A stretch of 64,000 bases of DNA. It comes from Lysinibacillus sphaericus (GTDB lineage Bacteria > Bacillota > Bacilli > Bacillales_A > Planococcaceae). The position numbers and the translations under genes were made by a program. The stretch is taken from positions 3,728,001 to 3,792,000 of the forward strand of contig NZ_CP019980.1 in assembly GCF_002982115.1 (NCBI RefSeq), given 5' to 3'. This document shows, piece by piece, positions 3,263 to 19,358 of this stretch. Under the pieces are notes generated by a model, which searched no databases, was not told where the DNA came from, and worked only from the letters and a program-made list of their open reading frames with translations. How positions within the stretch are numbered: position 1 is the first letter of the stretch; every line of letters starts with the position of its first letter.

Positions 3263-3640
3263 TTAATCTTTCATTAACGAATAACCTTGCTGTAACCATT
3301 TCACTAGCTTTTCATGCTCGTTTTGTAATTCACGATGTTTAATTTCAAGATTTTGATAAGCTTCCGTTAATTCATCAAAACTCGTTAACGCTAATTTTAA
3401 ATGGCTTCGCATAGATTGTTGAGGTTGATTGCGAACAGCTAAAAGCGATTGACTATATTGCCCACGTAATGTTTTATTCCAACGAAAACCACATGCTTGT
3501 TTTGTACGTCCAAGCTCATTAGCAGCCATTTCAAATGCCTCTAACTGCGTTTTACCGTTTTGCACATTATGCAAGACAATTTCTGCTAATCTTTCATCGT
3601 CTTCCTTTGTCCATTGATCTTTTCTTTTTTTCAGTTCCAT
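3263..3640 (-). CDS. rsfA: RsfA-type prespore transcription regulator
   Basis: 125-residue DNA-binding protein. An N-terminal Myb/SANT-like domain (residues about 4-60, KRKDQWTKEDDERLAEIV ... CGFRWNKTLR) is followed by a C-terminal heptad-rich coiled coil (about 82-118). This is the architecture of B. subtilis RsfA (YlbO), a sigma-F-dependent modulator of prespore gene expression. Position next to panE and near rpmF/ylbN matches ylbO-ylbP-ylbQ synteny; ylbP is absent here. ATG at 3640 with GGTGAT upstream. Related Myb-like proteins in Bacillales are also called RsfA-family, so strict orthology is likely rather than proven. Confidence 0.82.
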   Translation of the reverse strand: MELKKRKDQWTKEDDERLAEIVLHNVQNGKTQLEAFEMAANELGRTKQACGFRWNKTLRGQYSQSLLAVRNQPQQSMRSHLKLALTSFDELTEAYQNLEIKHRELQNEHEKLVKWLQQGYSLMKD

Positions 3641-3703
3641 AATCTATCACCCTCACATTTTTTACTACTATATGCGTTACCAGGCAAAATAGAATCACAG
3701 GAC

Positions 3704-3750: not shown

Positions 3751-4518
3751 CTACTTACTGTTCTTTTTTGTTAGAAAATTATTAACTGCCTCGTGATGCG
3801 CTTCACTTTCCCATAATTTTGCACATGTGCGAACTTCCTCCATAACGCGCTCATACATATTACGCTCTCGCCATTTACGAAGTTCAATTTCTTTATACGC
3901 TTTGTGCACGGAAGGATGTATTTTGCGCATATGTTCAATAAACTCATTCAAAGCAAGTTCCTTCGATCCTTCAAATACACGCATTGCCCAACCAATCTCA
4001 TATAGTAAATCAGCCGGATATGGCTTTGCATCCACTAGCATCTTCATTGCGCGGTCATGGCGTAAACCTCGTTCAAATAAGTAGGTTCCACCACCCCAGC
4101 CACTTGTAATTGCTAATGTCCCTTGAATAAAGCCACATTTAGCATGGCTAGCCACTAAACGAAAATCACAAGCAGTGGCAATCTCGCAGCCACCGCCTAC
4201 AGCAGTCCCATTAATCAGTGCTATCGTCGGTACTGGTAATGTAGCAAGATCATATAAGATTTCCCCCATCTTACTTAACATTCCAAAGGCTTCATCTTCA
4301 GTTTCAAGAGAATGAAATTCTGATAAATCCCCTCCTGAACAAAAAGATTTTTCCCCCGCTCCTGTCACGACTAAAAAACGCACATCGTCATGATTTTGTA
4401 TATATGTAATTACTTCTCGAAGACCATTCATTACCTCATCATTCACAGCATTACGCTTTTCTTCACGGTTTATGGTAAATGTCATGATCCCATCTTGATT
4501 ATCAATACTATAAGCCAC
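3751..4518 (-). CDS. Crotonase (enoyl-CoA hydratase/isomerase) family protein, atypical active site
   Basis: 255-residue crotonase-fold acyl-CoA enzyme. The first oxyanion-hole region (CSGGDLSEF, about 60-68) and the second (INGTAVGGGCEIATACD, about 102-118) are intact, so it should bind and polarise a CoA thioester. The two catalytic glutamates of true enoyl-CoA hydratases appear replaced, by Q132 and K159, and the following loop reads TSGWGGG. A tryptophan here recalls ethylmalonyl/methylmalonyl-CoA decarboxylase-like crotonases, so hydration is doubtful. Start is GTG 4518 with GGGGGAAC upstream. It is a single-gene unit with its own terminator, inserted between rsfA and rpmF where B. subtilis has no such gene. 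The substrate is unknown. Confidence 0.85.
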   Translation of the reverse strand: MAYSIDNQDGIMTFTINREEKRNAVNDEVMNGLREVITYIQNHDDVRFLVVTGAGEKSFCSGGDLSEFHSLETEDEAFGMLSKMGEILYDLATLPVPTIALINGTAVGGGCEIATACDFRLVASHAKCGFIQGTLAITSGWGGGTYLFERGLRHDRAMKMLVDAKPYPADLLYEIGWAMRVFEGSKELALNEFIEHMRKIHPSVHKAYKEIELRKWRERNMYERVMEEVRTCAKLWESEAHHEAVNNFLTKKNSK

Positions 4519-4731
4519 TATAGTTCCCCCTTTGTCCCCATCAATTATACGTCGGCTAAATCGGAGCCCACTTGAAAAGACCCTCTGAAAATGTATAACG
4601 TTTGCTAATACCTTATCACTTATTCAGCAATCGTTCGAAACCTCACTGAAGCAAGCTAAATAAATTGTATCACACTATTGTTATAGCACTATATAAATTT
4701 AAAATATTTATGAAAAATTCTGTTATTTCAA

Positions 4732-4779
4732 GCAAACAAAAAGGCTAGTAAAGAGCCATGGTCTCTTTACTAGCCTTTT
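4732..4779 (-). terminator. Strong terminator after rpmF
   Basis: Perfect 17-base arms at 4739-4755 and 4763-4779 (CTCTTTACTAGCCTTTT) with a seven-base loop, followed on the minus strand by T residues. It ends the ylbN-rpmF transcript. Confidence 0.93.
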
Positions 4780-4797
4780 AAGTGAGCAAACACTGTA

Positions 4798-4971
4798 TTA
4801 TTTGCTTACTACTTCTTTACCTTTGTATTGTCCGCAAGCTTTGCAAACACGGTGTGATAATTTTGCTTCACCACAGTTTGGGCAAGCTACCATACCAGGT
4901 ACAGATAGTTTGAAATGCGTACGACGCTTTCTTTTTGCAGTTTTAGAAGTTCTTCTAAATGGTACAGCCAT
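4798..4971 (-). CDS. rpmF: 50S ribosomal protein L32
   Basis: 57-residue ribosomal protein starting [19 protein letters not shown], a hallmark L32 N-terminus. It carries an intact zinc ribbon, CPNC at about 31-34 and CKAC at about 44-47, so this is the zinc-containing (C+) form. The frame could begin three codons earlier at a GTG, but that codon lies inside the AAGGAGGTG ribosome binding site; ATG 4971 gives correct spacing and the universal start. It is 24 bases downstream of ylbN, forming the widely conserved DUF177-rpmF pair. Confidence 0.98.
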
Positions 4972-4995
4972 TGATGGCACCTCCTTACAGATCGT

Positions 4996-5529
4996 CTATT
5001 CGTCTGTTTGATCAAAATACTTAGCTAAAGCAGCTAGTCTTGGATCCACTTTTGGTTCGTCAGTTTTTTTGTGAAGCGCCACGTCTTCATCTGTTGCGTA
5101 AGACCAATTTTTACCACCTTGCACTTGTCCTTCGGTATTCTCTTTGAATACTTGCAATGGTACCTCAAGAAGCACTAGCTCCTCAATAACTGGCTTCATG
5201 TCGATTACTTCACCATCAAGATAGTGAATATCACCGTCATCTTCCCCTCTTTTTTCTTCGTCAATCCAGCTGAATATTTCAACTGTCTCAACTTCGATAG
5301 GAAACTCAACATCTTCCCATGTGCGAGCACAAGGTAGTGTTAACGTTGCTGTCACAGTTAGCTGACAAGTCATTTGCGATGCACCGAATGTACATAGCCC
5401 TTTTACATGAACGGGCGAAATTGCTCGAATATCCTGGTTTCGCTCCATCACCTCATCCAATTGGACATAGGTATCGATCGGCATTCCGTCTTGACGGTAT
5501 TTAGATAATTGATGAATTGACCATTTCAT
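4996..5529 (-). CDS. ylbN: YceD/DUF177 family protein YlbN
   Basis: 177-residue protein of the YceD (DUF177) family, linked in bacteria and plants to accumulation or maturation of 23S rRNA. The typical centre is present at about 75-105: a Cys-containing segment (CQLTVTATLTLPCAR) leading into an acidic strand-rich region, with an acidic tail ending in YFDQ. ATG 5529 is chosen because GAGGTGATT precedes it at good spacing and the product begins MKWSIHQL like relatives; an upstream in-frame extension lies across the promoter and is rejected. It is co-transcribed with rpmF from the promoter at 5560-5588. Confidence 0.93.
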   Translation of the reverse strand: MKWSIHQLSKYRQDGMPIDTYVQLDEVMERNQDIRAISPVHVKGLCTFGASQMTCQLTVTATLTLPCARTWEDVEFPIEVETVEIFSWIDEEKRGEDDGDIHYLDGEVIDMKPVIEELVLLEVPLQVFKENTEGQVQGGKNWSYATDEDVALHKKTDEPKVDPRLAALAKYFDQTDE

Positions 5530-5559
5530 TCGTTTAATCACCTCGAGACAACACTGTTG

Positions 5560-5588
5560 ATTATATAATGTGTAAAAATAGATGTCAA
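5560..5588 (-). promoter_or_regulatory. Consensus sigma-A promoter for ylbN-rpmF
   Basis: On the minus strand TTGACA (5583-5588), a 17-base spacer and TATAAT (5560-5565): a perfect match to the sigma-A consensus. The expected start lies about 24 bases before the ylbN ATG. Confidence 0.93.
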
Positions 5589-5728
5589 GATAATTTCTTG
5601 TCACCACTCGAAAACCCACCTATAATTAAGTACATCTAATTTGTATTTAGCCTCTTGTCGTAACCGACAGTAAATCATCAGTAGCTATAAGCAAAATTTC
5701 AGATAGAGGCACTGTAACACTATTTGTA

Positions 5729-5756
5729 GCATCTTGACTGGTCAAAATCAAGATGC
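5729..5756. repeat. Perfect 9-bp inverted repeat upstream of tmcAL
   Basis: GCATCTTGA at 5729-5737 and TCAAGATGC at 5748-5756, ten bases apart, no T-run on either side. It ends 31 bases before the tmcAL start codon. It could be an operator or a 5' leader hairpin; no function can be assigned from sequence. Confidence 0.5.
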
Positions 5757-7335: not shown

Positions 7336-8382
7336 TTATTTTGGTGCTAGCTGTTTTAAATAAGCAATCGCATCATCGACTGTTTTCACAGGGACAATTT
7401 TCATTTTCGTCCCAATTTCTTTAGCCGTTTTGACAGCCGTCGCATAGTTCGATTCTAACTCAGGATATTTTGCTTTCATTTCAGGTGTAATCTCATCATC
7501 AGGTGCAAAAAATATTTCCATACCGTCACGATCGGCTGCAATAATTTTGTAGTCAATACCACCAATACGCCCAACAGAACCATCGATTAACATTTCACCA
7601 GTTCCAGCCACAGCATAGCCTTTTGTTAAATCCTCATCGATTAATTGATTTAATATTTCTAGTGTAAACATAAGCCCCGCGGAAGGTCCGCCAATATCTT
7701 CGGTTTTCATCGTAACATTTGGATTAGTTTCAATCGATTTACTCTCCGCATAAGTAATCCCTAACCCAGCTCGTTTTTCCTCTGCTTGCGGAATTTCTTT
7801 CAAGGCAATGGTTTCTTGTTGTTCCTTTTTATCGCGTAAAAACTGAATCGTCACTTTATCGCCGAGTTGTTTTTTGGATAAAAGCTCCACAAGCATTTGT
7901 TGATTCGTAATTTCGATACCATCCACTTTCGTTATTTCATCCCCAGCTTTTAATAATCCATCTGAAGCGCCACCATCTAAAACATTTAATACAAATACGC
8001 CATTGAAATGTATTTTCGCCTCTAGGCCCGCTCTTTGAAAAGCTACATATTTTGCATTGAATTGAGAATCTGACATTAATTTCAGTTGACGAACATTATA
8101 TTCTTCGTCATCCTCTAATGGATTTCTTACTTGTTTAATATCCATTATTTTTTCATATTTTTGTGTTTTCGCCCAGAGATACGAAAACGGTGTAGCTTGT
8201 TGCATAGCAACTGTCATTAAACTCATCGAACCCGCCTCATCAGAATGATTATTGGCGACAGTGACAAATTTACTAACATCGTATGCACTTCCAGGCTTCA
8301 TAATATACGCGTCTAGTCGGTATAACATAAAAAAACAAAGCGCGACTAAAAACACTGCATAAAGACCAATTTTTTTCTTCAT
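7336..8382 (-). CDS. ylbL: Membrane-anchored PDZ/Lon-like serine protease YlbL (SepM family)
   Basis: 348-residue cell-surface protease. An N-terminal membrane anchor (about 5-21) is followed by a PDZ domain (about 125-200, GGASDGLLKAGDEI) and a Lon-type proteolytic domain with the Ser-Lys dyad visible as S234 (GGPSAGLMF) and K279 (GIDYKI). In B. subtilis YlbL, with CtpA, degrades the SOS division inhibitor YneA; in streptococci the relative SepM processes a competence pheromone. ATG 8382 has AGGAGGTG upstream. It is divergent from ylbJ, as in B. subtilis. The role in checkpoint recovery is by homology. Confidence 0.93.
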   Translation of the reverse strand: MKKKIGLYAVFLVALCFFMLYRLDAYIMKPGSAYDVSKFVTVANNHSDEAGSMSLMTVAMQQATPFSYLWAKTQKYEKIMDIKQVRNPLEDDEEYNVRQLKLMSDSQFNAKYVAFQRAGLEAKIHFNGVFVLNVLDGGASDGLLKAGDEITKVDGIEITNQQMLVELLSKKQLGDKVTIQFLRDKKEQQETIALKEIPQAEEKRAGLGITYAESKSIETNPNVTMKTEDIGGPSAGLMFTLEILNQLIDEDLTKGYAVAGTGEMLIDGSVGRIGGIDYKIIAADRDGMEIFFAPDDEITPEMKAKYPELESNYATAVKTAKEIGTKMKIVPVKTVDDAIAYLKQLAPK

Positions 8383-8501
8383 CGAATGGACACCTCCTAA
8401 GACGCACGCAAAACTATTAGTTCATGTTTTTGCCTTTTTTACATATATTGATTTTAGCATTTGCCTATGTGAATGACAAAAAGTTGAAACGAGATGATAT
8501 C

Positions 8502-9401
8502 ATGTTTGCGACAATTCAAATAGCGCTCTGCATACTTCTTATCCTATTACTCTTGTTGTTCCCACAAACTGCTCATAGTGGTACCGATTTAGGATTAAAT
8601 CTTTTTATGGAGGCGTTATTCCCTTATTTATTGCCTTATCTTATTTTAACGCAATGGTTACTTCGTTTAACCGCTCCTATGCGTGCAAAAACAAAACGAA
8701 TTTCTCTATACGTACAAGCCTATCTTATTAGCGCACTTGGTGGATACCCGACAGGAGCCACAACTATTGTCTATTTAAAAAATAGTGGACAATTACACTT
8801 AAAAGAGGCGAACTTTTTACTTGCCGTTTGTCATGCCCCAAGCCCTCTTTTCGTACTAGGTTTTGTCAGCCTTGATTTATTAAACAGTAATACGTTTGGT
8901 TGGCTGTTTTTATGTTTACTACATAGTTTTAATATTTGTTGCTTAGTAGTTGGTTATTTTTTATTTCGTAAAACCGACCCTCCTACCATTTCTGTACACA
9001 ATACCGTCTTATATACAGCCCCATTTTCAGAGAGCATAAAAGAAACGGCACCAACCATTCTATTAGTTGGCACAACCATCATTTTTTTCACAACCATTCA
9101 AACCATATTACAACAAGGATTAGATAAAATGTTACCTGCTATTCCACAAACAGTTGAGCTTGCAATCGCCGCGATTCTTGAAGTAACAAACGGATTAAAA
9201 ATGACGGTTACTGAGTTTTCTGATTTCCCGTATTTATCATTACTCGTTGTCATAATGTTGACAATGCAAAGCATAAGTATTCATTTACAAATTTTTGTTA
9301 TTGCAAAATCAGCCAAACTTTCTGTCAGACCTTACATCAAATTTCGCCTTCTTAGCATAATCATTGTACCAACAATTTATGCTGCTTTTTTCTTACTATA
9401 G
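8502..9401 (+). CDS. ylbJ: Sporulation integral membrane protein YlbJ
   Basis: Polytopic membrane protein of about 300 residues with seven or eight hydrophobic segments and the family signature SALGGYPTGATTIVYL (a GNPAGA-like loop in B. subtilis) followed by CHAPSPLFVLG. YlbJ is a sigma-E-dependent sporulation protein of the nucleoside-recognition/Gate superfamily, needed for normal spore resistance in B. subtilis. The frame opens at an ATG at 8424, but no ribosome binding site precedes it; ATG 8502 has GAGATGAT, one base from the anti-SD complement, so the shorter form is preferred. At either length it is shorter than the about 400-residue B. subtilis protein. Confidence 0.82.
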   Translation: MFATIQIALCILLILLLLLFPQTAHSGTDLGLNLFMEALFPYLLPYLILTQWLLRLTAPMRAKTKRISLYVQAYLISALGGYPTGATTIVYLKNSGQLHLKEANFLLAVCHAPSPLFVLGFVSLDLLNSNTFGWLFLCLLHSFNICCLVVGYFLFRKTDPPTISVHNTVLYTAPFSESIKETAPTILLVGTTIIFFTTIQTILQQGLDKMLPAIPQTVELAIAAILEVTNGLKMTVTEFSDFPYLSLLVVIMLTMQSISIHLQIFVIAKSAKLSVRPYIKFRLLSIIIVPTIYAAFFLL

Positions 9402-15544: not shown

Positions 15545-15991
15545 TTATGCTGAACAAGAGCATGAGCCACCTGTGCCACAACCGCTTCCACATGAAGAAT
15601 TCGATGCAAAGAACGGATTGCTAACTGGTACTTTCACTGCTTCCGATACGGTTTTACCAATAAGCAAGCTTATTTCATCAAGCAAATCTTGAAAATCATT
15701 TTCAGCTAACTTTAATGCTGAAATCTTTTCATTTAAATCGAGTGCTCGCTTTTGCTGACGAATCGATTTCATAATTGTATGATAATCCGGATGATATTTT
15801 CCGAAACGTTGTACATCTTCGTATTGCTCCTTCATGCGACCAAATGCATAAATAGCTTCGACTAATTGCGTATCACTATAGACAGCATTATACGCGAGCT
15901 TTAGCGTATGCGCAGGTTCAGAGGAAAGAATCATTTCACAAAGCGCATCGGCCTCATCCAAAATGATTGCCCATTCAGAGGTCATCATCAT
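15545..15991 (-). CDS. ylbF: YlbF, RNA-maturation/competence regulator of the Y-complex
   Basis: 148-residue alpha-helical protein of the YlbF/YmcA family. In B. subtilis YlbF, YmcA and YaaT form a complex with iron-sulfur clusters that directs RNase Y and affects competence, biofilm formation and sporulation. The C-terminal tail is Cys-rich (C134, C138, C144, C146 in a Gly/Ser linker), the expected cluster-ligand region; helical core at about 5-115. First ATG of three in a row at 15991, with GGGGGAA upstream. It is separated from ylbG here by unrelated genes, unlike in B. subtilis. Confidence 0.92.
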   Translation of the reverse strand: MMMTSEWAIILDEADALCEMILSSEPAHTLKLAYNAVYSDTQLVEAIYAFGRMKEQYEDVQRFGKYHPDYHTIMKSIRQQKRALDLNEKISALKLAENDFQDLLDEISLLIGKTVSEAVKVPVSNPFFASNSSCGSGCGTGGSCSCSA

Positions 15992-16077: not shown

Positions 16078-16581
16078 TTGGGTACATCATCTAAAGGGCA
16101 AATTGAAGAATTACTCGCTACTATTTTACAACATAGTACAGCGGAGGATGAGGAAGTATTGCTACACTTGCTCAATGGCATTCGCGATAAACAACAAGGC
16201 ATACATCGACGTTATATAAATGCCGCTTTACATATGGTAGGCAACTTTGAACCCGAAGTGAGTGAAGTACGAATACCTATTACGCCCGTTATTCATAATA
16301 CTATTAAAGTCCCACATGGAGGCATTATTGCAACAATCGCTGATGCAGCAATGGGAGGATTAGCTTCACGTTCTGTTGCAGAAGGCTTTAATGTTGTGAC
16401 TACTAATCTTAACATTTCGTATATAGCAACCACGACCAATAAAGAGTTAATCGCACGAGGACGTTTTGTTCATAAAGGGCGACAAACGCTTGTTATGGAA
16501 TGTGATATCGAGGATGAGACAGGGCGTAAACTGGCGATTGCTACCGCTACTTTCTTCGTTATTCAGCGCCGTCCGTCTTAA
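16078..16581 (+). CDS. PaaI-type hotdog-fold thioesterase
   Basis: 167-residue acyl-CoA thioesterase-like protein. A helical N-terminal extension of about 45 residues precedes a single hotdog domain with the PaaI/4HBT signature VPHGGIIATIADAAMGGLAS (about 80-99), then NLNISYIATTTNKELIARGR and a C-terminal strand ATATFFVIQ. Start is TTG at 16078, forced by AAAGGAG twelve bases upstream and no ATG nearby. Its 3' end overlaps the convergent murE-like gene by 23 bases. The acyl-CoA substrate is not evident; the context with a cell-wall ligase gives no clue. Confidence 0.85.
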   Translation: MGTSSKGQIEELLATILQHSTAEDEEVLLHLLNGIRDKQQGIHRRYINAALHMVGNFEPEVSEVRIPITPVIHNTIKVPHGGIIATIADAAMGGLASRSVAEGFNVVTTNLNISYIATTTNKELIARGRFVHKGRQTLVMECDIEDETGRKLAIATATFFVIQRRPS

Positions 16582-18031
16582 CTTCTGAAAAATAATCTTT
16601 AATACATTGTTGGTCGGAAAAAGGGAATTTTTGATTTTTTATTTGCTGCGTTTGTTCATGCCCTTTTCCGGCAACAAGAACAATATCCCCTTTTTGTGCT
16701 TTTGCCAATGCCTGATGTATCGCTACTTTACGATCCAAAAAAATTTCATAGTATTGCTGTTCAGAGAAACCTGCAATAATACTTTCATTAATGACTATCG
16801 GGTCCTCATCACGCGGATTATCAGTCGTTAAAAAAATTACATCTGCATACTTACTTGCCACAGCCCCCATGGCAAATCGTTTTGCCTTATCTCTATTACC
16901 GCCACAACTAAATACAAGATAAATGGTCTTCTTACTATCGAAAGTTTGTAGTACAGCCTGCAATGCTTCTGCTGTATGTGCGTAGTCTACATATACATCA
17001 ATACCAAGCGGGTTATCAATTCGCTCAAGTCTGCCCTCCGGAAGCTTTAGCGCCCACATATGCTCAGCAAGTTCATCAATGGAGAAACCTAGACGCCACA
17101 CCGCCATTAGTGCAGCTACTGCATTTTGCACATGATATTTACCAACAAAGGGGATAGCGATGATGTGCTCACTTGCTGTCGTTTGCAGACAGATAACTGT
17201 TTTTCCAACGGATTCACTCACAATTTGGATATGTAAATCATTGTGATTGTCAAAACCGAATGAGCATGATTTTTTCTTATCGTAAATACCAACGGAACGA
17301 CAGAAATTATCATCGCCATTTAACACTAATTTTTTCGATAAATCTGCTAGCCTCTTTTTGGCACGCTTATATGCTTCAAGTCCCCCATGGTCTTCTAAAT
17401 GATCCTCTGATAAATTTAAAAATACACCACAGTCAATATCACAATGATCTAATCGATGCTGTTGCAAACCCATTGAGGATGCTTCTAACACAACGTGTGT
17501 CACACCTTGTCGTACACATTGTTTTAATATGGGATGTAGCTCTTTTGCTTGCAGTGTTGTTAATTGCTCATATTCAGTTTGTTGTTTTTGTCCATTAATA
17601 AAGAAGCCCACTGTTCCAATAACTGCTACATTTTTATGTACAGCTTCTAGTAATTGGCTCACAAAATGGCTCACTGTCGTTTTTCCATTTGTTCCTGTAA
17701 TGGCGATAACTGATAATGCCTCTGCCGGAAAAGCGGCCAGTTTTGCACTTGCATAAGATAAAAACAATGCCGTATTGGGCACCCACACAAACGGGATATT
17801 TTGATCGTTAAATGGTATGGCAATACTTTCCTCGGATACAACGGCCGCCGCACCCCTTGCCAGTGCTTCTTTGACAAAACGACTGCCCGATGTCCTTTTC
17901 CCTTTCCGTACAATAAAGATATCTCCAGGCTTCACCGCCTGTGCATAATCCTCAACACCAGTAATTATTGTACGAATGGATCCACCGGTTACACTACATG
18001 GCCAATCTTTCAATAGCTCAGCTAATTGCAA
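16559..18031 (-). CDS. MurE-family UDP-MurNAc-tripeptide ligase with meso-DAP signatures
   Basis: ATP-dependent ligase of the MurE group, 490 residues, which adds the third amino acid to UDP-MurNAc-L-Ala-D-Glu. Three Mur domains: N-terminal UDP-binding (1-105), central ATPase with ITGTNGKTT (111-119) and the carbamylated-lysine segment EAYKRAKKRLA (K225), and C-terminal domain (about 330-490). D404-N-P-R407 and G455-KGHE459 are the residues that recognise meso-diaminopimelate; lysine-type MurE differs at both. The substrate loop reads EASSMGLQQHRL where EVSSHAL is usual. Start is TTG 18031 with AAAGGAGG. It lies outside the dcw cluster, alone, so it is probably a second MurE. The start-proximal promoter resembles sigma-K sites. 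Confidence 0.9.
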   Translation of the reverse strand: MQLAELLKDWPCSVTGGSIRTIITGVEDYAQAVKPGDIFIVRKGKRTSGSRFVKEALARGAAAVVSEESIAIPFNDQNIPFVWVPNTALFLSYASAKLAAFPAEALSVIAITGTNGKTTVSHFVSQLLEAVHKNVAVIGTVGFFINGQKQQTEYEQLTTLQAKELHPILKQCVRQGVTHVVLEASSMGLQQHRLDHCDIDCGVFLNLSEDHLEDHGGLEAYKRAKKRLADLSKKLVLNGDDNFCRSVGIYDKKKSCSFGFDNHNDLHIQIVSESVGKTVICLQTTASEHIIAIPFVGKYHVQNAVAALMAVWRLGFSIDELAEHMWALKLPEGRLERIDNPLGIDVYVDYAHTAEALQAVLQTFDSKKTIYLVFSCGGNRDKAKRFAMGAVASKYADVIFLTTDNPRDEDPIVINESIIAGFSEQQYYEIFLDRKVAIHQALAKAQKGDIVLVAGKGHEQTQQIKNQKFPFSDQQCIKDYFSEVKTDGAE

Positions 18032-18054
18032 GGTCTCTCCTCCTTTCAGTTCTC

Positions 18055-18082
18055 TATCATATGACGGCCTTTATAACGGTGT
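18055..18082 (-). promoter_or_regulatory. Possible sigma-K-type promoter of the murE-like gene
   Basis: On the minus strand CATATGATA (18055-18063) fits the sigma-K minus-10 pattern CATANNNTA, with AC (18081-18082) 17 bases upstream. It lies 24 bases before the TTG start. The pattern is short, so chance occurrence is plausible. Confidence 0.3.
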
Positions 18083-18184
18083 GACGAAAAATGCAGGTGG
18101 CTCCAAGTGCCAAAAACGGTGCAATCTTGCAAGCTATAACCTAGACGAAAAAGAAAAATCATTCAATTTGAAAGTGTTAAGCAC

Positions 18185-18219
18185 AAAAAAAGAATGTCTT
18201 GATGTAATCAAGACATTCT
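18185..18219 (-). terminator. Terminator after the CAP-domain gene
   Basis: Perfect 13-base arms AGAATGTCTTGAT / ATCAAGACATTCT (18191-18203, 18207-18219), seven T on the minus strand. Confidence 0.92.
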
Positions 18220-18223
18220 CTAA

Positions 18224-18245: not shown

Positions 18246-19358
18246 TTATTCATCGGAATTCTCAACAGATTCTTCGCTTGCATCTTTCTCACTGTCATCC
18301 TTTTGCTTTGTAGGTTCCATAAAAATTTGGGTATAGTAATTTAAAAAGACACCTGACCCTACTACCGTATATTTATCATTTAAAATGACTTTGCGATGTT
18401 CAGGTGAATTTTGCCAACCATGCATTGCTTCAATAGCATCGAAGTACGCAGTCGCTAGATTTTCATTCGCATTATTAAAAACAATACCCTGTGCATCTAA
18501 ACGTTTCTTTAAATCGCCGTTCGTTGGTGATTCATGACCAGAAAAATTTTGTACCTTCATGTCTTCACTGTGTAGTTTTGCCACTTCTTCTAATTTTTCA
18601 TCACGTTCCAATGGCGCTAAATGGTGATGAGCTCGCGTGACGTTAATTAAATCATCAAGCTGTCTAGCACTTGCTTCATTAATTTCCTGTTGTAAAAAGG
18701 AGGATGGTGGTGTTGGACTCACAAGCTCACCTTGATAAATCATTTCATAAGGCTGATGTAGTACTAACGTCTCACTATCTGTAAAGCGAACGCCTTGTAG
18801 CTCACCTGTTTCGCTATCAACATAAAGCTGTGCAAAAAGCCCGTCAAATTTAACGAGTAGTCTTGTCTGCATATCTTCTTCACTCATAGAAAAAATGAAA
18901 ATATTTTCTCCTACATTCGCTGCTACTTCATAGTCAATAATTGTCATTCGGTAAATATCGTCGCGCTTCTGACCAATTTTAAAAGGTGAAGCATCCAACT
19001 TATCTCCGGCTATGTATACTTGTGTCACGATATTATTTTGCACACCTAGCATAAAAAATGTTGACACACTTGTGTTATAAACCCACCATTCGTAACCAAA
19101 TGACGAAGGTTCTTTTCTTGCTGGTTCACCGTATTGTTCTACAATCATCTGAGTTCCTTGTCCAATGAATGTCGACATACCACTTTGCGGACGGGACATC
19201 GCACCTACATCTGGCTGCTCCAGCTCTGTTTTTGGAATAATATTCGAATTGGCATTTGGTCCTTCGAGTGGCTCATTTTCTTTTGCAGTATTAAAGAACA
19301 TAAAGCCGATAAACGCAATTGTTGCACAGGCAATTAAAATGCGAAATAAAGCTTTCAT
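18246..19358 (-). CDS. Secreted CAP-domain protein (YlbC-like)
   Basis: 370-residue exported protein: hydrophobic N-terminal anchor (about 4-23), a CAP-associated N-terminal domain (about 60-200, beginning MSTFIGQGTQMIVEQYGEP) and a C-terminal CAP/SCP domain (about 235-350). CAP motifs seen: RAHHHLAPLERDEKLEEVAKLHSEDM, FSGHESP and the AMHGWQNSPEHRKVILND signature. The tail is Asp/Glu/Ser-rich. Layout is that of B. subtilis YlbC, whose function is unknown; secreted bacterial CAP proteins have been tied to cell-envelope and germination roles. ATG 19358. Divergent from the yugN-like gene. Confidence 0.88.
   Translation of the reverse strand: MKALFRILIACATIAFIGFMFFNTAKENEPLEGPNANSNIIPKTELEQPDVGAMSRPQSGMSTFIGQGTQMIVEQYGEPARKEPSSFGYEWWVYNTSVSTFFMLGVQNNIVTQVYIAGDKLDASPFKIGQKRDDIYRMTIIDYEVAANVGENIFIFSMSEEDMQTRLLVKFDGLFAQLYVDSETGELQGVRFTDSETLVLHQPYEMIYQGELVSPTPPSSFLQQEINEASARQLDDLINVTRAHHHLAPLERDEKLEEVAKLHSEDMKVQNFSGHESPTNGDLKKRLDAQGIVFNNANENLATAYFDAIEAMHGWQNSPEHRKVILNDKYTVVGSGVFLNYYTQIFMEPTKQKDDSEKDASEESVENSDE

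Follow-up and report, generated by a model that had tools for sequence, protein, structure and literature searches.

The gene described here, murE2, lies in a window of 64,000 nucleotides of Lysinibacillus sphaericus, which corresponds to positions 3728001-3792000 of a 4.68 Mb single-contig genome (G000:C1). It occupies positions 16559..18031 of the minus strand as an open reading frame of 490 codons with a TTG start, preceded by the ribosome-binding site AGGAGG (18039..18044, minus), and encodes a 490-residue candidate sporulation-specific diaminopimelate (DAP)-adding UDP-MurNAc-L-Ala-D-Glu ligase. The upstream neighbour is a CAP-domain gene (18246..19358, minus) with the Pfam domains CAP_assoc_N and CAP and a match below cut-off to the YkwD profile TIGR02909. 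Downstream lies ylbF (15545..15991, minus). An earlier note on this DNA had placed the gene alone between ylbF and the CAP-domain gene. It does lie between the two, but is not quite alone, since a convergent hotdog thioesterase gene (16078..16581, plus) intervenes before ylbF, its 3' end overlapping the last 23 bases of murE2. An intrinsic-terminator-like hairpin with a T run (18189..18221, minus) separates the CAP-domain gene from murE2, so that murE2 is probably its own transcription unit; an operon with the CAP-domain gene was considered and judged unlikely, with this hairpin in between. The order CAP-domain gene, murE2, ylbF was found in representatives (one to three each) of all 13 spoIVA-bearing genera of the family. 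The thioesterase gene stands between murE2 and ylbF in only some of the genomes inspected, and in genus g6 ylbF is located about 3.5 kb further on from murE2.

MurE2 scored 435.5 bits against the murE profile TIGR01085 (cut-off 257.3), with residues 22-480 of 490 aligned, and 437.9 bits against the NCBIfam DAP-ligase model NF001126 (cut-off 373). Its score against the L-lysine MurE equivalog NF010628 was 296.8 bits, under the cut-off of 536. All three Mur ligase Pfam domains (N-terminal, middle and C-terminal) are present, and the PDB matches are headed by the MurE enzymes 8f5d, 2wtz and 4bub. A contig search, which returned 19 Lysinibacillus matches and one distant match in all, found the protein to be 100% identical to its counterpart in Lysinibacillus mangiferihumi M-GX18, bearing out the supposition of the earlier note that the organism was a Lysinibacillus, and 84-92% identical to the proteins of 18 other named Lysinibacillus records. 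An alignment of 28 murE2 orthologues shows no variation in the P-loop TGTNGKTT, in K225, D404, N405 and R407, or in GKGHE; on our reading of that alignment, K225 would be the position of the carbamylated lysine. This invariance of the ligase residues indicates that MurE2 has been kept as an enzyme.

One other MurE is encoded in the genome (G000:C1:3867665-3869128), 33% identical to MurE2; six further matches to MurE2 are weaker (E 1e-13 to 2.7) and represent other Mur-like ligases. A gene that we take to be prfC-like (peptide-release-factor-3-like; L009:7904-9481) adjoins this second murE. The closest solved relative of its product is the L-lysine MurE of Staphylococcus aureus (4c12), at 487 bits versus 306 for the next distinct PDB sequence. 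Both murE genes were found in 19 of the 19 named Lysinibacillus genomes, L. sphaericus 2362 included. In Bacillus, MurE sits in the dcw cluster between spoVD and mraY, and it was in the dcw cluster that a second murE had been anticipated; a second murE does exist, but outside that cluster. No murE was found in the dcw cluster here (L010, L011) between the presumed spoVD-like and mraY-like genes, which stand side by side, and murE2 is not at this position either but adjoins ylbF instead. The profile NF001126 does not discriminate the two enzymes, because both exceed its cut-off, the vegetative MurE scoring higher than MurE2 (525.6 versus 437.9 bits); NF010628 was missed by the vegetative MurE as well (430.9 bits versus a cut-off of 536). 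The vegetative wall of Lysinibacillus is described as Lys-Asp in three papers (PMC5011910, PMC6971209, PMC10434897). Two murE genes and a reported Lys-Asp wall stand in place of the sole murE and DAP-containing vegetative wall that the earlier note had named as speaking against its proposal.

The DNPR and GKGHE motifs, on which DAP addition had originally been proposed, are both present in MurE2 at the residues given, DNPR at 404-407 (16811..16822, minus) and GKGHE at 455-459 (16655..16669, minus). GKGHE had been called diagnostic of DAP; here it is not, as GKGHE is found in this genome's lysine-type murE too. Where MurE2 has DNPR the vegetative MurE has DDPR, and not the DDPN or DNPA that had been expected of it. 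DDPR, in which Asp replaces the Asn of DNPR, was found in 13 of 13 distinct vegetative lysine-type enzymes from 12 genera. Among 70 distinct murE2 orthologues, the site reads DNPR in 60, DNAR in five, DNCR in two, DNSR in two and DSPR in one (L058), so the Arg is kept in all 70, the Asn in 69 and the Pro in 61. MurE2 retains both the Asn and the Arg of DNPR, as expected of a meso-DAP-type enzyme. Structures of the Escherichia coli and Mycobacterium tuberculosis enzymes, as described in PMC3829189, have the second (Asn) and fourth (Arg) positions of DNPR binding the DAP carboxylate; S. aureus MurE has DNPA, and its A409R variant gained no DAP activity (PMC3829189). Judging by this variant, it takes more than the DNPR motif to fix specificity. 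The PDB-match alignment gave DDPR for the Thermotoga LD-lysine ligase 4bub, as in the vegetative MurE here, and the MurE of other Bacilli families has DNPR in 22 of 25 cases and lacks it in three. The central loop of MurE2 (EASSMGLQQHRL, residues 183-194; 17450..17485, minus) had been singled out as unusual, and the wider comparison agrees: the loop reads EVSSH in 13 of 13 vegetative enzymes, and its His position is occupied in the 70 murE2 orthologues by Met (46), Leu (13), Ile (6) or Gln (5) and by His in none.

Some further Mur ligase genes were observed. In L. sphaericus 2362 the lysine-type murE also occurs as a further, defunct copy (G074/G278:C1:4678347-4679797; 61-65% identity) with many stop codons. 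The 20 genomes of genera g2 and g5 are all without a close match to the lysine-type MurE. Nine inspected genomes of these two genera (L074-L082) have a MurE-like ORF, 518-562 codons long and lacking both DNPR and GKGHE, which in L078 scored 290.8 bits on TIGR01085; it may encode a vegetative enzyme for another residue, e.g. ornithine. Apart from the dcw cluster, a group of genes at L244:4354-11162 (G000:C1:2702353-2709161) comprises two Mur ligase genes, what is presumably an ATP-grasp-type gene, and a gene for a 744-residue protein. The Mur ligase gene that was scanned (4354-5739) is MurF-like, and the 744-residue protein has an ATP-grasp-like part followed by a MurF-like C-terminal part.

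A total of 151 genomes of the family, from 19 genera, were searched with MurE2, the vegetative MurE and spoIVA (TIGR02836), the last as the one marker standing for sporulation, and the lists were collated by hand. spoIVA was over cut-off in 113 of the 151 genomes and murE2 was found in every one of the 113, in G020 by a weak match at the same site and in five g3 genomes by a first piece of 46-51% identity. In G099, murE2 is present and the spoIVA match, which starts at a contig end, is under cut-off. No murE2 was found in the 34 genomes without any spoIVA match (genera g7, g8, g9, g10, g13 and g16), where the best MurE2 match had an E value of 6e-60 to 3e-72 and an identity of 31-34% among the matches listed. 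For 16 of the 34, a single match to both the MurE2 and the vegetative MurE queries was obtained, the vegetative gene; the remaining 18 (g8, g13) have further MurE-like genes. At the site itself, 10 of 10 non-sporulators inspected among the 34 have the neighbours and lack murE2; no CAP match was seen at the site in the non-sporulator G027. Three genomes of genus g2 (G001, G038 and G054) have spoIVA fragments only and about 110 codons of murE2 left at the site, split in G038, which also has a leftover aspartokinase piece containing a stop. The sole genome of the four in g2 with spoIVA over cut-off is G020. Its murE2 (L083/L208) is shortened and fast-changing, with a 439-codon frame, GKGNE for GKGHE and a very long branch in the MurE tree (L083), and may be beginning to decay.

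On a tree built from eight neighbour proteins of 31 genomes, six changes of state are needed, with the states of murE2 and spoIVA identical in 31 of 31; a sign test (0.031) only restates these six independent changes, because the two genes shared one label, coinciding in all 31 rows. murE2 has the distribution of a sporulation gene, being present in the genomes with spoIVA over cut-off and not found in those without a spoIVA match. The co-occurrence with spoIVA shows a role in the spore, not which spore layer. Across the sampled family the second MurE accompanies sporulation and is no peculiarity of Lysinibacillus. A search of 121 genomes of the class, 112 belonging to other families, found no full-length MurE2 match above 37% identity outside the family. 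One partial match outside it (G238) had 40% identity over 288 residues, and an order-level search with MurE2 gave matches within the same family alone. In the MurE tree a branch with SH-aLRT 93 sets the MurE2 proteins apart from the lysine-type vegetative enzymes (100) and from the MurE of other Bacilli; the tree does not tell which other MurE gave rise to the group. Between genera, MurE2 is 38-57% identical to the window protein among the matches listed, and vegetative MurE 56-82%.

Upstream of murE2, a -10 box of the sigmaK/sigmaE type, CATATGATA (18055..18063, minus), is conserved across genera. It is preceded at a distance of 16 nt by the conserved -35-like element CGTCACA (18080..18086, minus), whose AC lies 17 nt before the -10 box. 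The box CATANNNTA was found within 100 nt upstream of murE2 in 61 of 66 loci from 11 genera, compared to 1.99 expected from dinucleotide shuffles, the loci not being independent, as those of the same genus are related (24 are from Lysinibacillus and 14 from g11). These 66 were drawn from 83 murE2-type loci by omitting 17, namely 11 duplicates, five of g5 with a start that is not fixed, and L083. Every locus has the box in nine of the 11 genera, five of seven in g3 and one of four in g12; in the five loci where the exact box is missing, the three g12 misses read CATACGATG and one g3 miss reads CATACGCTG. No CATANNNTA was present within 100 nt upstream of 13 distinct vegetative murE genes. Across the window the box is no rarity (41 found versus 51.7 expected), and the promoter evidence therefore consists in its conservation and place. 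It occurs within 100 nt upstream of two of the 57 predicted genes of the window, murE2 and an RsfA/GerR(YlbO)-like regulator gene (3263..3640, minus; best NCBIfam match TIGR02894, 94.7 bits, below the cut-off of 126.45), which has CATATAGTA at 3666-3674. A further gene of the window, which we take to be ylbJ-like (8299-9401), has CATAATATA about 125 nt upstream. For B. subtilis, PMC517825 gives gerR as a sigmaE gene and lists ylbJ as a sigmaE cortex gene.

The spoIVA gene of the same genome has TCATATTT, then 13 nt, then CATATAGT. Upstream of murE2, AC is found 17 nt before CATANNNTA in several genera, and a GTNACA/GTGTCA-like element is conserved. Compared with the consensus sequences, the murE2 -35 element looks, if anything, more sigmaK-like than sigmaE-like. 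A sigmaA-like match, GTCACA-18-TATGAT, is also present (9 of 12 positions), such hits being as frequent in the region as in shuffles (8 found versus 8.1 expected). With its conserved upstream -10 box, murE2 has the -10 feature looked for in a mother-cell (sigmaE/sigmaK) gene.

In genera g3, g4, g5, g6, g12 and g17, murE2 has a divergently transcribed neighbour, an aspartokinase-like gene some 245 codons long. It was found in 17 of the 19 loci scanned (the misses were L110 and L117), for example at L103:4537-5268 (+), L106:2117-2929 (-), L101:4519-5304 (+) and L209:2225-2968 (-), and a variant is present in G020. The L101 and L209 genes match the catalytic half of the aspartate kinase NF006068 (254 and 267 bits, positions 2-246 of 405); they are under its cut-off of 474 because a half-length protein must score below a full-length cut-off. 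A Pfam scan of these two proteins gave AA_kinase alone and no ACT domain. In a search of 21 genomes, no aspartokinase was found at the murE2 locus in seven genomes of g1, g11, g14, g15, g18 and g19, nor at the same locus in six non-sporulators, one per genus; it is absent from the murE2 locus in Lysinibacillus as well. The aspartokinase matches in G100 and G020 contain stops. No CATANNNT-like box common to the loci was found before the divergent gene. A GAATAYATT-like conserved stretch was noticed between murE2 and the aspartokinase gene. Aspartokinase catalyzes the first step of the DAP pathway. Judged from its domains, an aspartokinase lacking the regulatory half is expected to be free of lysine feedback, a predicted property that would suit a lysine-rich cell in need of DAP.

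A spore-cortex DAP ligase, as the earlier note had suggested, is the reading to which the second, S. aureus-like murE, the co-occurrence with spoIVA, the promoter box and the DAP-binding Asn and Arg all lend support. We infer that murE2 very probably encodes the mother-cell sporulation isozyme of MurE that adds meso-DAP for the cortex, the lysine-containing vegetative wall being supplied by the second MurE. murE2 would be made in the mother cell during sporulation, its product would add meso-diaminopimelic acid to UDP-MurNAc-L-Ala-D-Glu, and the cortex would be built from DAP precursors, with the vegetative wall being made with lysine via the prfC-linked DDPR MurE. Given separate MurEs for cortex and vegetative wall, the switch in wall chemistry would be an isozyme change driven by a sporulation sigma factor. 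Tipper and co-workers reportedly described, around 1970, a DAP-adding activity made only in sporulation of Bacillus sphaericus 9602, which is said to have a DAP cortex and a lysine vegetative wall. No paper assigning a gene to that enzyme was found in the open full-text literature; as subscription papers were mostly outside the search, no priority is claimed for the gene assignment.

The co-occurrence and the promoter box point to sporulation only, and murE2 could be a sporulation gene that serves a different part or process of the spore (germ-cell wall, coat-associated peptide or regulation) and not the synthesis of bulk cortex precursor. A middle-domain loop altered in 70 of 70 orthologues and the greater divergence of murE2 between genera, compared to the vegetative enzyme, would suit such a role. 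We nevertheless regard it as improbable, because the ligase residues are invariant in the 28 aligned orthologues, and because the sole other MurE of this genome is lysine-type, while the cortex of B. sphaericus reportedly contains DAP. Still less probable is that murE2 encodes an isozyme for lysine, or of broad specificity, whose role is just to raise the precursor supply in sporulation. GKGHE is common to the lysine enzyme, and a motif swap alone left the specificity of S. aureus MurE unchanged (PMC3829189); against this, the DAP-carboxylate Asn and Arg are kept in murE2, with Asp for Asn in 13 of 13 vegetative enzymes, and the presence of a divergent aspartokinase suggests a supply of DAP. 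That murE2 is a paralogue with a constitutive or accessory role, retained by chance near ylbF in sporulating lineages, as the weak sigmaA-like match might hint, is hardly credible in view of six separate tree changes each common to spoIVA, the joint decay with spoIVA in g2 and the conserved sporulation-type box.

If MurE2 is the cortex DAP isozyme, an activity reportedly described half a century ago would acquire its gene and its promoter, together with a series of natural gene losses, and why spores need DAP would become testable in an organism that grows with no DAP in its wall; loss of murE2 is expected to hit the spore and spare growth. Beyond this single genome, we lean towards the view that the whole family alternates between two peptidoglycan chemistries through a switch of isozymes. 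The cortex would have stayed with DAP while the vegetative wall changed, in most genera to lysine, added by a DDPR enzyme, and in the two genera with a DNPR-less MurE to some other composition, and the ancestral switch would have been a divergent pair of murE2 and a feedback-less aspartokinase, making DAP flux blind to lysine during sporulation. On this view DAP would be strictly required for the cortex but dispensable for the vegetative wall. Since both murE genes are over the cut-off of one NCBI DAP-ligase model, automatic naming can hide such a switch. Flies infected with L. fusiformis are reported (PMC10434897) to show a stronger Imd-pathway response, as to Gram-negative infection, despite the Lys-Asp wall. 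This response might be explained by DAP that MurE2 would make in sporulating cells or in spores.

Among known systems, the DAP-adding enzyme of B. sphaericus 9602 is from the same organism group, and is reported to be sporulation-only and to supply DAP for a cortex beside a lysine wall; it is known as an activity. The dcw-cluster MurE of Bacillus (DNPR, DAP) shares the predicted reaction, the motifs and the three domains with MurE2. In contrast to it, murE2 is located beside ylbF, has an altered EASS(M/L/I/Q) loop and would serve one wall, not both, and full-length MurE from the 112 other-family genomes does not exceed 37% identity to MurE2. The L-lysine MurE of S. aureus (4c12/4c13) is the nearest solved relative of the vegetative MurE (487 bits) but is far from MurE2 (223 bits), and has DNPA where MurE2 has DNPR. 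Finally, the DapG-type aspartate kinase (NF006068) is matched in its catalytic half by the divergent gene, which differs from it in that no ACT domain was found and in its position opposite murE2.
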